Shown here piece by piece: positions 3,403 through 35,672 of a stretch of DNA of 38,761 nucleotides (positions are counted from its first letter, which is position 1; each line of letters opens with the position of its first letter). The stretch covers positions 1-38,761 of the IMG/VR virus record IMGVR_UViG_3300005511_000897, one strand, 5' to 3'. The notes beneath the pieces were generated by a model. That model saw only the letters and a list, made by a program, of their open reading frames with translations. It was not told where the DNA came from and did not search any database. Source of the stretch: a virus. The translations under genes and the position numbers were made by a program.

Positions 3403-3734
3403 TTCGCCCACCTCTGCGCGTCTGCGCGGTTTGCAACGCTGTTGGAAATCATCTGGTCTTTGAGCTGGTCGATCTTGTTGCTCAGGTCTTTCACGTCGGC
3501 GCTGATGGACCGCAGCGCATCGCGGGTGTCGGCGCGTTGGTCGAGCTGCGCTGACTCAATGCGCCCCATCCGAGCCTCCTGTTGTCGGTCGTGCTCTTCG
3601 AGCGTTTGGACTCGGCTACCGAGCGAGTACCACGCCCCCACGGCGACCGCGATACAGCCGGCCAGCCAGCAAAGCAGCGTTTGCAGGCTGATGGTGGTGT
3701 CAATCCACCGTGCCTTCTGTTGAGGGTCCGTCAT
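3399..3734 (-). CDS. Coiled-coil membrane protein of the lysis cassette
   Basis: 111-aa protein with one transmembrane segment (about residues 17-37) followed by a hydrophilic heptad-rich coiled coil (about 40-98). It is the first gene of the lysis block and overlaps the holin start by four bases. The architecture resembles XhlA-type or antiholin-like accessory proteins that are membrane-anchored with a cytoplasmic or periplasmic coiled coil. It may tune holin timing, but no family-specific motif is visible. The start at 3734 (ATG-ACG) is preferred over an upstream extension, which would be antisense to the acyltransferase gene. A hairpin with a T-run lies just upstream of it on the same strand. 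Confidence 0.6.
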   Translation of the reverse strand: MTDPQQKARWIDTTISLQTLLCWLAGCIAVAVGAWYSLGSRVQTLEEHDRQQEARMGRIESAQLDQRADTRDALRSISADVKDLSNKIDQLKDQMISNSVANRADAQRWAK

Positions 3735-30317: not shown

Positions 30318-31119
30318 AGTCTACGGCGCTGAGGGCAAGACTAACGTCCTCAGCTTTGACCCTAACGTCCTCGTGATCGTCGAGGACACGCAGCACCCCC
30401 TCTACGACGAACGTATTCACCTGCCGTTGGATGAGGCGATGGTGAAAAACGTCATGACGTACGGCGTGATCGAACCCGTTCTGGTTTGGAAGGACCCGGA
30501 AACCGCACAGGTTCTGGTGGTGGCCGGCCGCCAACGCGTCCGACACGCTCGCGAGGCGAACCAACGGCTTTCGGCCGAGGGTAGGCCGACGCTGCTGGTG
30601 CCGGGTATCGCGCAGCGAGGGACTATCGACCAGATGGCCGATAAGGCGATTCTGGAGAACGAGCTTCGCCGTAACGACACGCCGATGGCGCGCGCCCGCA
30701 AGATGGCCGCCTACGCCGCGAGGGGTTACACGGACAACCGCCTCGCCCTGATCTTCGGATGCAGCGAGGCTACCGTTCACACCCACATGATCCTGATGGA
30801 CTGCACCGTCGCAGTTCAGAAGGCGGTCGACGGTGGGCAGATCAACCTGACACATGCAAAAGCCCTTGCCAAGCTGGATCCCGCCGAGCAACGCGCCAAG
30901 GCAGCCGAGCTGATTGCAGCCGGGACCGGAGCCAAGCCCCACGAACGCGCACGGAAGCAGGCCGCAATCGTGGGCGGTGACGCGCCCAGGCCGCGTACCA
31001 AAAAGGAGATCAGCAAAGCGCTCGATACGGCCGATGGTGAAGTACGCCACGCGCTGCGCTGGGTTCTCGGTCTGGAGTCCGAACTGGGTGCACCCGTGCC
31101 GGAGGCCGCCGATGCTTAA
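30295..31119 (+). CDS. ParB-like nuclease/CTPase-fold protein
   Basis: 274-aa protein with an N-terminal ParB/sulfiredoxin-like domain (about 30-115) containing YGVIEPVLVWKDPETAQVLV followed by the hallmark AGRQRVRHAREAN with the G-x-R-R pattern, and a KorB-like helix-turn-helix near 150-172 (LALIFGCSEATVHTHMILMD). In phages such proteins accompany DNA modification genes and can be nucleases or DNA-binding clamps rather than plasmid partition factors. An ATG at 30295 is followed directly by another at 30298; AAGGA lies four or seven bases ahead. It overlaps the next gene by eight bases. Confidence 0.85.
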   Translation: MMAKNSVEVYGAEGKTNVLSFDPNVLVIVEDTQHPLYDERIHLPLDEAMVKNVMTYGVIEPVLVWKDPETAQVLVVAGRQRVRHAREANQRLSAEGRPTLLVPGIAQRGTIDQMADKAILENELRRNDTPMARARKMAAYAARGYTDNRLALIFGCSEATVHTHMILMDCTVAVQKAVDGGQINLTHAKALAKLDPAEQRAKAAELIAAGTGAKPHERARKQAAIVGGDAPRPRTKKEISKALDTADGEVRHALRWVLGLESELGAPVPEAADA

Positions 31120-31621
31120 GCGAACTACGCCCCTCCGCCAGCAGGCACCGATGAAGCGCACCGGCTGGATGCGCACCACGCGTGAGAAGAAGGCCCCAGG
31201 CCTCGCCCAACGCATTGCCGAAGCCCTGGGCTTTGCCATCAAGCACGAACGCGCTGAGTCGTCCGTATTCCGGAGCCAGACCCACCTGCAGAACGTTGCA
31301 AGCCTCAACTGCATCAGCTGCGGTCGGCCCCAACGCTCGCAGGCGGCCCACACCAACATGCTGGCCTTGGGCAAAGGGAAAGGCATGAAGGCGTCCGACG
31401 CCCTAACCTTCCCCCTGTGCGCCAGCGGCCTGCTCGTTATTGGCTGCCACGCCATGCTTGATCAAGGTGGCGCCTACAGCAAGGCCGCCAGCCGCGAAGT
31501 TCAGCTCGATTGGCTGGTCCGCACCCGGGACAAGCTTCTGCGCCTGGGGCAATGGCCGGCCGCTGCGGAAAACGACTTCGAAAAGTTCGTCGTCTCCTAT
31601 CTGAATCGGGAGGGCAAGTGA
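31112..31621 (+). CDS. Ref/HNH-like Cys-His nuclease-fold protein
   Basis: 169-aa protein with a basic N-terminus (LKRTTPLRQQAPMKRTGW) and a metal-binding region: NCISCGRPQRSQAAHTN (Cys70, Cys73 and His82), GKGKGMKASD, then CASG and GCHAMLDQGG. This Cys-x2-Cys plus H and C-H pattern is that of phage HNH-like proteins related to Ref and DUF1364 (RecA-dependent nucleases in the case of P1 Ref). I am confident of the metal-binding fold but not of the activity. It is coupled to the methyltransferase by the GTGA overlap. Confidence 0.65.
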   Translation: MLKRTTPLRQQAPMKRTGWMRTTREKKAPGLAQRIAEALGFAIKHERAESSVFRSQTHLQNVASLNCISCGRPQRSQAAHTNMLALGKGKGMKASDALTFPLCASGLLVIGCHAMLDQGGAYSKAASREVQLDWLVRTRDKLLRLGQWPAAAENDFEKFVVSYLNREGK

Positions 31622-33066
31622 ATGGTCTGGCTCTATGTGCCGGGGTTGGCATGCTCGACGAAGGACTCAGAGCTGCATGCCAGTTTCTTGGATTCGAATA
31701 CCGTACCGTTTGCTACGTGGAGCGGGAAGCCCCTGCTGCCGCGCAGCTTGTCACGCTCATGGAAAACGGAGCGATTGACGCGGCGCCTATCTGGTCTGAC
31801 CTGCTCACCTTCGACGGCGCAGCGTGGCGCGGCCGTGTGGATTGCGTCGTTGCTGGCTTCCCCTGCCAAGACCTATCCATCGCCGGTCGCCGCGCAGGCC
31901 TCAATGGCAAGCGGTCCGGTCTCTTCTTCAATGTCGTCGAAATTGCGGACGCTTGCGGTGCGGTCGAACTCTTTTTGGAGAACGTCGCAGGGATCGCTAC
32001 TGCAACCGCCGCCGTTGTGGACCCGGAAGAAGGCGATCTCGAAGAACGCGCCGCCGCCCGCGTCCTGGGAGAACTGGCCGACCGCGGGTGGGATGCGGAA
32101 TGGCTCACTCTTTCAGCGTCCGACGTTGGCGCTGGACATGGCCGCGCACGCTGGTTCTGTCATGCCTGGCGAGTGGCTGACGCCGAACGTCCCGAATGGG
32201 GGCCGCAGTGTATCAGCGGAGCTGGTGGCGTCGAAGGGCACAACCAGCACCGGAGAGAAGCGCACGGTCGGTCTGGAGTCGCAGGCGAAGCACTGGCCAA
32301 CTCCGGACGCATCGGCGACAGAACGCACGAACCGCAGCATTTCGGACGGAGCAGCCATACGGCCAACGATAGCACTGGCAGCGAAGCAATGGCTAACGCC
32401 GCACGGCATGAGCGGAACAGGCAAGGATGGCCGACCGGGCGGGGGCGGGGAGTTTGCGAAGCAGGTTACGGCCTGGCCCAGTCCGCGAGCGTCGGATGCA
32501 GCGAAAGGCGGACCGAACCAACGGGGAAGCCGGGGCGATTTGATGCTGCCGAGCATGGCGGCACAGTGGCCGACGCCGAATGCCCACGACGGTCGCCGGC
32601 CGGGAGTGGATTTGAGTTCGACCCAGGGAGGCAACCTGAATCGAGATGCCGCAGCTTGGCCGACACCAATGGCGGCGGATCATCGCGGGAGTGCCGGCGC
32701 GGACAAAGCGGAATTACCGAACAGGGCTATGGCGTGGCCAACGCCGGCCAGCCGGGATTTCCGCACGCCGAACAGCCAGGAGAGCCAGGAGAGCCGGAAT
32801 CACTCGGGCGGGGAGCAGCTACCGAACTTTGTGGAACACCACTTTTCGCACCCGGTCCTCTCGACGATCGATGGCCGCGAATTATCGCCGACCGGCCGGA
32901 CCTTGCCCCGGCGGTTGAACCCGGCGTTCGCATGCTGGCTGATGGGATGGCCTACTTGGTGGACGAATCCCGCAGTCACCAACTCCGTCAAGTCGGAAAT
33001 GGCGTTGTACCGCTCCAAGCTGCAACGGCATTTGTGCAGCTTATTCGCCGTGCCGGCCTCGAATAG
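31618..33066 (+). CDS. DNA cytosine-5 methyltransferase (Dcm-like), orphan
   Basis: 482-aa C5 methyltransferase. Starts with GTG 31618 behind GGGAGG. Motif I is LALCAGVGMLDEG (SAM binding), motif IV is GFPCQDLS with catalytic Cys83, motif VI is LFLENVAGI, motif VIII is HGRARWF, and the C-terminus has motif IX/X-like QVGNGVVPLQAATAF. The region between motif VIII and X (about 187-440), which should hold target recognition, is low in hydrophobic residues and built from repeated VADAE/LADT/VANA units. The same DNA is open in the +1 frame with its own family-like pattern (see the next entry). No cognate restriction enzyme is visible, so it probably protects phage DNA from host restriction. Confidence 0.9.
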   Translation: MNGLALCAGVGMLDEGLRAACQFLGFEYRTVCYVEREAPAAAQLVTLMENGAIDAAPIWSDLLTFDGAAWRGRVDCVVAGFPCQDLSIAGRRAGLNGKRSGLFFNVVEIADACGAVELFLENVAGIATATAAVVDPEEGDLEERAAARVLGELADRGWDAEWLTLSASDVGAGHGRARWFCHAWRVADAERPEWGPQCISGAGGVEGHNQHRREAHGRSGVAGEALANSGRIGDRTHEPQHFGRSSHTANDSTGSEAMANAARHERNRQGWPTGRGRGVCEAGYGLAQSASVGCSERRTEPTGKPGRFDAAEHGGTVADAECPRRSPAGSGFEFDPGRQPESRCRSLADTNGGGSSRECRRGQSGITEQGYGVANAGQPGFPHAEQPGEPGEPESLGRGAATELCGTPLFAPGPLDDRWPRIIADRPDLAPAVEPGVRMLADGMAYLVDESRSHQLRQVGNGVVPLQAATAFVQLIRRAGLE

Positions 33067-33079
33067 GACCGCAACATGA
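32162..33079 (+). CDS. Overlapping +1-frame reading of the methyltransferase recognition region
   Basis: In frame +1 relative to the methyltransferase an open frame continues to 33079. From ATG 32162 it reads MPGEWLTPNVPNGGRSV and then carries seven W-(P/L)-(T/S)-P units (EWLTPNVP, HWPTPDAS, QWLTPHGM, AWPSPRAS, QWPTPNAH, AWPTPMAA, AWPTPASR) and a C-terminus RLNPAFACWLMGWPTWW. I recall this W-x-TP / LNPxFxxWLMG pattern as a recurring C-terminal region of phage Dcm-like proteins. The alternative frame of the same bases gives the equally patterned VADAE repeats. No strong ribosome site precedes 32162; expression by internal start or +1 frameshift, or mere phylogenetic relic, cannot be told apart. 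Confidence 0.4.
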   Translation: MPGEWLTPNVPNGGRSVSAELVASKGTTSTGEKRTVGLESQAKHWPTPDASATERTNRSISDGAAIRPTIALAAKQWLTPHGMSGTGKDGRPGGGGEFAKQVTAWPSPRASDAAKGGPNQRGSRGDLMLPSMAAQWPTPNAHDGRRPGVDLSSTQGGNLNRDAAAWPTPMAADHRGSAGADKAELPNRAMAWPTPASRDFRTPNSQESQESRNHSGGEQLPNFVEHHFSHPVLSTIDGRELSPTGRTLPRRLNPAFACWLMGWPTWWTNPAVTNSVKSEMALYRSKLQRHLCSLFAVPASNRTAT

Positions 33080-33522
33080 CAAACACAATTGCAATAGATC
33101 GCGCTGTCCTGTGGGCCGCAGTAGAAGCGCTGCGCGCGAACCGCGACTGGCACCTCGACGGCGACAAGGAAACCGCCTACGAAGGCAGCGACCTGAAGCA
33201 CCAAACCGAGGAAGCAATCAAAGGTCTGGAATCCGTGTTGGCAATCCGCCATCCCGAATGGTGCAAATGGCGTGTCGTCCCCTCGGAACCAACTCCGGAG
33301 ATACTGGCAGCAGCAGCTGTCGCCGTCTGGGCTATCGCCTCTCCGTCCGACGTTCAAATCGCCAAAGACGCAGCGCGCATCGTCCTCATGTCCATGAACG
33401 CAGAACCCGGCGTGACTTTGGATATGCTCGCAGCAACGATCGCCACGATGGCGCCCGCCTACCGCGCCATGATCGCCGCGGCGCCGTTGCTGCATGGAGG
33501 CGCCAATGGCGGAACAGCCTAA
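33076..33522 (+). CDS. Hypothetical 148-aa protein
   Basis: Soluble Ala-rich helical protein without recognised domain. The N-terminus (AVLWAAVEALRANRDWHLDG) followed by LKHQTEEAIKGLESVLA is helical; Trp-rich turns WCKW and VVPSEPTPEILAAAA follow. It starts nine bases after the methyltransferase stop and overlaps the next gene by 17 bases. Proteins of this look are common fillers of phage accessory operons. Nothing specific points to function. Confidence 0.6.
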   Translation: MTNTIAIDRAVLWAAVEALRANRDWHLDGDKETAYEGSDLKHQTEEAIKGLESVLAIRHPEWCKWRVVPSEPTPEILAAAAVAVWAIASPSDVQIAKDAARIVLMSMNAEPGVTLDMLAATIATMAPAYRAMIAAAPLLHGGANGGTA

Positions 33523-34877: not shown

Positions 34878-35083
34878 TCAAGATCACCGACATGGATGGC
34901 CGGGCGCATTACCTTTCGCCCGACGCCGTCGCGCGGGTTGTAGATGCCGGCCCGAACTGGCACGGCATCCGAAGCTACGTGAAGACGTTCGACGGCATGA
35001 CCATAGAAGCTTCGGAGGATGCTTCTACGCTGGCGCAGGCCATTGAACGCGCTACTGCACAAGGGGCGAACGATGCAACCTGA
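34874..35083 (+). CDS. Hypothetical 69-aa protein
   Basis: Small soluble protein with beta-like N-terminus (MIKITDMDGRAHYLSPDAVA) and helical C-terminus. The pattern 'I-x-(I/V)-T-D-x-x-G-x-x-(H/Y)-x-(L/I)' is reminiscent of very small beta-barrel proteins such as FlbD-like or phage accessory proteins, but similarity is too short for an assignment. It is translationally coupled by ATGA to the preceding gene and overlaps the methyltransferase gene by 11 bases. Confidence 0.6.
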   Translation: MIKITDMDGRAHYLSPDAVARVVDAGPNWHGIRSYVKTFDGMTIEASEDASTLAQAIERATAQGANDAT

Positions 35084-35672
35084 TGTCCTTGACCCGTGCT
35101 GCGGCAGCCGCATGTTTTGGTTTGATCCGCAGGCTCAGGGCGTACTGTTCGGCGACATACGCAGCGAGCAGCACACCCTATGCGACGGCCGCGCCCTCAA
35201 TGTCACGCCTGACCTGCAAATGGACTTTCGGGCGATGCCATTTCCGGATGGCTCGTTCAAACTGGTGGCGTTCGACCCGCCCCACCTGCGCAAAGCTGGC
35301 CTGGCGAGCTGGCTGGGGCTGAAGTACGGCATCCTGTCCGACGACTGGCGCGAGGACTTGCGACGCGGATTCGCGGAGTGCTTCCGCGTGTTGGCCAACG
35401 ACGGCGTGCTGATCTTCAAGTGGAACGAAACCCAGATCAAGGTGAGCGAGATTCTGGCGTTGACGCCGCATAAGCCACTTCTCGGACACAAGTCCGGAAA
35501 GAGGGCCGACACGCATTGGATGTGCTTCATGAAGCGCGCCGGCGCCCTGTGTGACCCCCACCAGATCGAGGGATCGAGTGGGGTCGATCTCCGGTCACGC
35601 TGCGAGGGTCACGCAAGCTCAGTGGACAGGGGAGGTCAAACCGTTCCATCAATCGATGGGAGGGAGCCATGA
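35073..35672 (+). CDS. SAM-dependent DNA methyltransferase (DPPH motif)
   Basis: 199-aa class I SAM methyltransferase. Motif I-like DPCCGSRMFWFD is at the very N-terminus (residues 6-17), and the catalytic motif IV-like FDPPHLRKAG (about residue 66) replaces the usual DPPY with DPPH. A later LANDGVLIFKWNETQIKV is the typical strand 5 region. The order and short length match phage-encoded orphan N6-adenine or N4-cytosine methyltransferases. The C-terminal about 45 residues (from CDPHQ) are unusual and may be extra. The start is ATG 35073, and the stop overlaps the next gene by four bases. Confidence 0.8.
   Translation: MQPDVLDPCCGSRMFWFDPQAQGVLFGDIRSEQHTLCDGRALNVTPDLQMDFRAMPFPDGSFKLVAFDPPHLRKAGLASWLGLKYGILSDDWREDLRRGFAECFRVLANDGVLIFKWNETQIKVSEILALTPHKPLLGHKSGKRADTHWMCFMKRAGALCDPHQIEGSSGVDLRSRCEGHASSVDRGGQTVPSIDGREP

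Follow-up and report, generated by a model that had tools for sequence, protein, structure and literature searches.

M.EcoHK31I (YGGCCR) is encoded by a small gene lying within a large gene in another reading frame, with a small subunit of about 176 aa, and in the multi-specific enzymes of Bacillus phages a single chain, read in one frame, holds all recognition units between motifs VIII and IX. In M.EcoHK31I, motifs I-VIII and X reside in the large polypeptide, where the recognition domain has also been described, and motif IX resides in the small one (PMC3404938). M.AquI is split after motif VIII, with both IX and X in its small polypeptide (PMC3404938). Target recognition by C5 enzymes is located between motifs VIII and IX (PMC5944983), and complementation is seen between enzyme fragments when the split falls between motif VIII and the recognition domain (PMC3404938, PMC5944983). 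Tandem recognition domains give the Bacillus phage enzymes several specificities (PMC8936443).

Here we analysed a viral sequence of 38,761 nucleotides (the complete stretch of IMG/VR record IMGVR_UViG_3300005511_000897, hereafter the window) in which a methyltransferase gene appears to carry the same kind of division in an unusually extended form. The window encodes tape measure, terminase, portal, head, DnaB and integrase genes and thus belongs to a temperate tailed phage. A second DNA methyltransferase gene (35019-35672; phrog_954, 4e-77) lies 2 kb downstream of the one considered here. Dual coding of the latter is strongly supported by the comparative sequence data below: a single stretch of DNA would yield two proteins, alpha and beta, read in the same direction and one base out of register over nearly its whole length. 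The parts of this gene and its upstream neighbour described below are on the plus strand.

Alpha, beta and their twin starts

Alpha (31618..33066, 482 aa, frame 0) was identified as a C5-cytosine methyltransferase catalytic subunit from its Pfam and PHROG matches and its motifs. It matched Pfam DNA_methylase PF00145 at 3e-21 over residues 2-187 and, by profile search, phrog_29583 at 1e-138. The C5 motifs occur in the expected order, with I at 31636, IV (PCQ, within GFPCQ) at 31855, VI (ENV) at 31978 and VIII at about 32119-32157, followed by QVGNGVV of motif X at 32989. The TTG start given for alpha in the raw list of open reading frames was replaced by GTG at 31618, which is preceded by GGAGG (31609-31613) and directly followed by motif I.

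Beta (31622..33079, 485 aa) begins at an ATG 4 nt after the alpha start with the sequence MVWLYVP, remains open to 33079 and fully overlaps alpha; its assignment draws on the open frame, PHROG matches, codon-position test and twin start. Seven WxTP modules are followed by a block at 32912..32968 (RLNPAFACWLMGWPTWWTN in beta, where alpha reads EPGVRMLADGMAYLVDE) that we take, from knowledge of the C5 family, to be motif IX, and whose LNPxF..LMGWP pattern is invariant across 32 beta proteins. Motif X (SRSHQLRQVGNGVVPLQAA, 32971..33027) lies in the alpha frame. Since the IX-like block is found solely in the +1 frame and X in alpha, neither protein alone carries the full set of conserved motifs. 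Profile searches related beta to phrog_1008 (2e-18) and phrog_27243 (about 1e-17), so that both translations, searched separately, have relatives. No family was found for beta in Pfam or NCBIfam searches, and no PDB match was found. The first-pass annotation had placed the two frames across the repeat region described below. Two frames do run through that region, but the +1 frame is open over almost the whole gene.

The GGAGG sequence (31609..31613, within GGGAGGG) is a putative Shine-Dalgarno element able to serve both starts. Its spacing, 4 nt to the alpha GTG and 8 nt to the beta ATG, may favour the beta start over that of alpha. Close pairing of the starts extends to the relatives: the beta start lies at +4 relative to that of alpha in 58 of 91 loci, at -2 in 21 and at -5 in 3, placing the two codons 2-5 nt apart in 82/91, with the beta start unrecognisable in the other 9. 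The usual forms are GTGAATG, ATGCATG and an overlapping ATGTG, and the beta N-terminus, MxWLYxP, is conserved from Acidovorax phages to a cyanophage. The upstream gene (31112..31621, weak Pfam match to DUF968) ends in a TGA (31619-31621) that abuts the beta ATG and overlaps the alpha GTG, an arrangement that makes translational coupling likely.

The repeat and the beta module array

The gene carries a degenerate unit, TGGCNNANNCC (TGGCnnAnnCC), that occurs at 32174, 32294, 32390, 32474, 32567, 32657 and 32735. The spacings of 120, 96, 84, 93, 90 and 78 nt are all multiples of three, leaving every unit in a single phase. The first-pass annotation had reported this in-phase, seven-fold repeat, and it withstands statistical scrutiny: 2000 dinucleotide shuffles of 32160-33079 gave a mean of 0.096 units and a maximum of 2. 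Its readings of the two frame ends, RQVGNGVVPLQAA in frame 0 and RLNPAFACWLMGWPTWW in the +1 frame, were likewise correct.

In beta, these units delimit seven modules, whose families were assigned by average-linkage clustering. Module 1 (32174..32293, WLTPNVPNGGR...) belongs to family 11, module 2 (32294..32389, WPTPDASATERTNRS...) to family 08, module 3 (32390..32473, WLTPHGMSGTGKDGRPGGGGEFAKQ) to family 13, module 4 (32474..32566, WPSPRASDAAKGGPNQRGSRGDL) to family 06 and module 5 (32567..32656, WPTPNAHDGRRPGVDL) to family 12. Module 6 (32657..32734, WPTPMAADHRGSAG) joined no family at the clustering threshold, and module 7 (32735..32911, WPTPASRDFRTPNS...NFVEHHF), which includes the linker to motif IX, falls in family 07. 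Clustering of 403 modules from 90 loci yielded 29 families of at least two members and 50 singletons; an array holds between one and seven modules, each some 25-40 residues long. Across this set each family is represented at most once per locus, and families recur in differing slots and orders, as in 11-08-13-06-12-x-07 in the window, 08-12-09-06-07 at locus L008 and 08-x-06-09-07 at locus L009. By these patterns the modules are evidently cassettes exchanged between phages, as expected of target-recognition units.

Codon-position analysis was used to ask which frame is selected here, given that position 1 of an alpha codon is position 3 of a beta codon. Across the module region of 16 homologues, the differences at alpha positions 1/2/3 are.377/.152/.137, and position 1 has the highest value in all of the 61 close pairs. 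An independent clade (clade 2) gave.278/.079/.059, with position 1 highest in 1182/1183 pairs, although loci inside one clade are related and the pair counts are therefore not independent. Because alpha position 1, the third position of beta, is the most variable, beta is the selected frame in the modules. The alpha frame contains no stop codon through the modules in 16/16 homologues, where 5-9 would be expected from the beta protein and window codon usage and 1.7-5.5 from a more conservative within-gene shuffle. The "VADA" text that alpha shows in this region is thus best read as a shadow merely kept stop-free. Dual coding of a recognition region, as first suggested for the repeats, therefore holds in that the +1 frame is selected there, but the alpha frame is simply kept open.

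Taken together, these features point to a two-subunit, multi-specific methyltransferase, a reading we consider probable. Alpha would supply motifs I-VIII, a long linker without selected sequence and then motif X. Beta, initiated 4 nt past the alpha start from the same Shine-Dalgarno element, would supply a selected N-terminal half, the seven WxTP modules and motif IX. The two proteins would associate into one active enzyme, with IX provided in trans, as has been reported for M.EcoHK31I, and the modules would act as recognition cassettes for several target sequences, protecting phage DNA from host restriction.

Both proteins might instead be made with the modules playing no part in target recognition. 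The array would then be a flexible docking or DNA-mimic element, which could for instance serve a decoy or anti-restriction function, and beta would give the enzyme just motif IX. Structure prediction lends this some weight, as the modules match no fold or family and AlphaFold leaves them disordered, even in the natural single-chain protein of locus L133, from alignments that are shallow and module-shuffled. Mean pLDDT for the window beta is 49, with confidence solely in the motif-IX segment, and the L133 model is confident in the C5 catalytic part and the IX-X part, its best PDB match being M.HhaI. Folded recognition domains are not supported by these models. On the other hand, the modules fill the interval from motif VIII to motif IX that houses the recognition domain in C5 enzymes (PMC5944983); at the DNA level several exchangeable units do occur in that interval, encoded in the other frame. 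Shuffling of cassettes without repetition inside a gene also fits multi-specific phage methyltransferases, and we regard a non-recognition role as rather unlikely.

Selection and conservation of the two frames

Outside the modules, alpha shows the pattern of a coding frame. Its positions 1/2/3 differ at.158/.090/.282 over the catalytic domain and at.157/.069/.216 over the C-terminal block (16 homologues each). Within the latter, the HQLRQVGNGV segment has a diversity of 0.37 at alpha position 3 versus 0.04 at position 1 and 0.02 at position 2, and motif X is, on this measure, alpha-selected.

The catalytic domain also bears the imprint of beta. Change at its alpha third positions is almost absent from three blocks and unrestricted in the stretches separating them. 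Block 1 (31693..31842; beta FATWSGKPLLPRSL...RLSGLTCSPSTAQRG) and block 3 (32053..32112; ENWPTAGGMRNGSLFxRPT, overlapping the motif VII-VIII region of alpha) were marked by suppressed change at alpha position 3, and block 2 (31963..32022; SxLLPPPPLWTKPK in the beta of relatives) by position diversity, which in its second half is 0.01 at alpha position 3 versus 0.16 at position 1. A TWPTSGMTRNG-like segment comparable to block 3 occurs in actinophage beta as well. The blocks were defined from clade 1 and tested on clade 2 with position-resolved tests, and all three replicated. In clade 2, four-fold site diversity was.117 inside the blocks versus.307 outside (p 7e-8). Among differences that change alpha, the ratio of beta-silent to beta-changing was 728:59 in the blocks versus 170:173 elsewhere. 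A structured RNA is disfavoured as the source of this synonymous constraint, because such asymmetry is not expected from RNA and an Rfam search of 31400-33200 gave no match. The N-terminal half of beta thus has the evolutionary signature of a selected protein.

Stop avoidance operates here too. In 15/16 homologues the beta frame crosses the catalytic domain past the start region without a stop, with 4-6 expected from the alpha protein and 1-2.6 from within-gene shuffles. In the catalytic domain, Leu and Val codons ending in TG or TA precede an A-starting codon once, versus 62 times for the alternatives; the corresponding counts in control genes were 122:81.

The arrangement is shared by a wide range of phages. 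By profile searches, beta lies at +1 to alpha in 119/126 loci in which the two adjoin, and in 83 of 90 non-redundant +1 loci the stretch open in both frames measures at least 900 nt, the median being 1196. Among the first-collected loci with both parts, the WxTP frame always stands at +1 relative to the catalytic domain, even at identities as low as 28%; in the first locus search, no catalytic-domain match was obtained at L015, L017 or L027-L030. The loci include those of Acidovorax, Klebsiella, Arthrobacter and Gordonia phages, one Synechococcus phage and many uncultured viruses. Related beta proteins were detected in 195 phage-collection records, including Escherichia, Klebsiella, Salmonella, Xanthomonas, Pseudomonas and Rhodobacter phages.

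Several natural variants redistribute the parts. In several actinophages alpha stops after motif VIII, and beta alone carries the modules, IX and X. In the mycobacteriophages the array begins in the +1 frame, and its later modules share the alpha frame, and one chain, with I-VIII, IX and X. Such chains show the modules, IX and X to be components of the enzyme that carries I-VIII. The two parts of the mycobacteriophage array are each under selection in their respective frames (.375/.114/.128 versus.187/.151/.429), and at most of these loci the +1 frame ends 8 nt before the first frame-0 module. Loci L133-L167, from mycobacteriophages and prophages, keep a fixed order: one to four modules come first at +1, and further modules, IX and X follow in the frame of alpha.

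A few loci depart from the rule. The locus from a metagenome-assembled Acidovorax genome (L032) has one stop in the N-terminal half of beta, at offset 458 from the alpha start, with an intact module part, and L004 has an additional frame change within its array. L040 has a 1-nt frame break that joins the beta start to the alpha end and coincides with a G7 tract in the module WLTPFGMNG...GGEFAKQ (3600-3640 of that locus); slippage on such a G tract could act as a frame switch. In the window, the same module contains G-runs at about 32438-32454. L101 (2387-3666) has a replaced or scrambled catalytic domain and retains the start region, modules, IX and X, as in a decayed copy.

The step past motif VIII is almost always +1 and single-chain versions exist among the relatives, which would suit a programmed +1 frameshift after motif VIII that produces an alpha-beta fusion with the modules and IX beside unshifted alpha. 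The first-pass annotation had offered this option, but it is not needed, because both proteins start at twin start codons. It also sits poorly with the data, as beta initiates at a start codon of its own, has a conserved N-terminus and is already under selection ahead of the point at which slippage would occur, and motif X would be lost from the fusion. Moreover, synonymous variation is among the highest in the last 20 codons of motif VIII ahead of the modules, with alpha position 3 at.41-.43. Given this variability just 5' of the modules, no slippery site is conserved there, and we judge frameshifting very improbable.

That just one frame is real, the other being a by-product of the repeat and GC-rich codon usage, is harder still to credit. 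Long spurious frames do arise in GC-rich DNA, and the alpha amino acids do appear unselected in the module region. Against this stand stop avoidance in both directions, beta-selected modules and an alpha-selected motif X, together with beta-constrained blocks inside the alpha catalytic domain and actinophages that use the +1 frame alone for modules, IX and X. The +1 frame therefore has both homologues and purifying selection, and a mock repeat or chance frame was rejected on the shuffles, stop avoidance and codon-position data.

Least credible of all is an old frame switch, in which a single-chain gene recently suffered a frame-shifting mutation and is decaying: L040 and L101 do have frame breaks, and switching has happened in relatives such as the mycobacteriophages, but this does not explain the window, and the +1 layout spans hosts in 119/126 loci under purifying selection. 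Of the three options first put forward, true dual coding is the one supported, in the altered form of a whole-gene overlap; a programmed frameshift is very improbable, and an old frame switch does not account for the window.

A proposed class of phage genes and its known counterparts

We lean towards a wider interpretation of the two-subunit methyltransferase, in which the window represents a widespread class of phage genes that encode, in two frames opened by twin start codons, a catalytic subunit together with a multi-specific recognition subunit whose cassettes are shuffled. It would follow that every moving cassette must code in one frame and be stop-free in the other. To our knowledge, few double-stranded DNA phages have been documented to carry same-strand overlaps exceeding 1 kb in which both frames are demonstrably selected. 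The overlap described here is common and modular and is linked to an enzyme that can be tested, and it offers a natural case for studying two-frame co-evolution under cassette recombination. We found no paper on this phage overlap, on selection in both frames or on cassette shuffling in an openly licensed literature library.

There are also consequences for annotation, as most records examined list one frame, so that half of the enzyme, and with it probably its specificity, is missing. In Acidovorax phages Alfacinha1 and 3 (L001, L002), gp46, a "cytosine-specific methyltransferase", is the beta frame, and the frame with the catalytic motifs is unannotated. Annotators have nonetheless already seen a nested pair, since the records of the Escherichia phages K1G and K1ind1 (Kagunavirus) give a gene for each of the overlapping frames, named "C-specific methylase" and "Mte8-like protein". 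Like the window, these have an alpha with I-VIII and X and a nested beta with IX; their pair differs in being shorter, with one WPTP module and a beta start inside alpha rather than a twin start.

Among characterized enzymes, the C5 methyltransferases of Bacillus phages SPR, SPbeta, phi3T, rho11 and H2 resemble the window in layout, having several recognition units in tandem; unlike theirs, the window's units are in a second, +1-frame protein. M.AquI is closest to the actinophage relatives, where alpha has I-VIII and beta has modules, IX and X; the window differs from it in placing motif X in alpha and not beta, and in its full-length overlap. By analogy, the window would work most like M.EcoHK31I, with which it shares overlapping frames, I-VIII and X in alpha and IX in beta. 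Unlike the small subunit of M.EcoHK31I, beta in the window is 485 aa long, has a module array and overlaps almost all of alpha from a twin start. The recognition domain of M.EcoHK31I is in its large subunit, whereas the module region of the window is selected in the beta frame.
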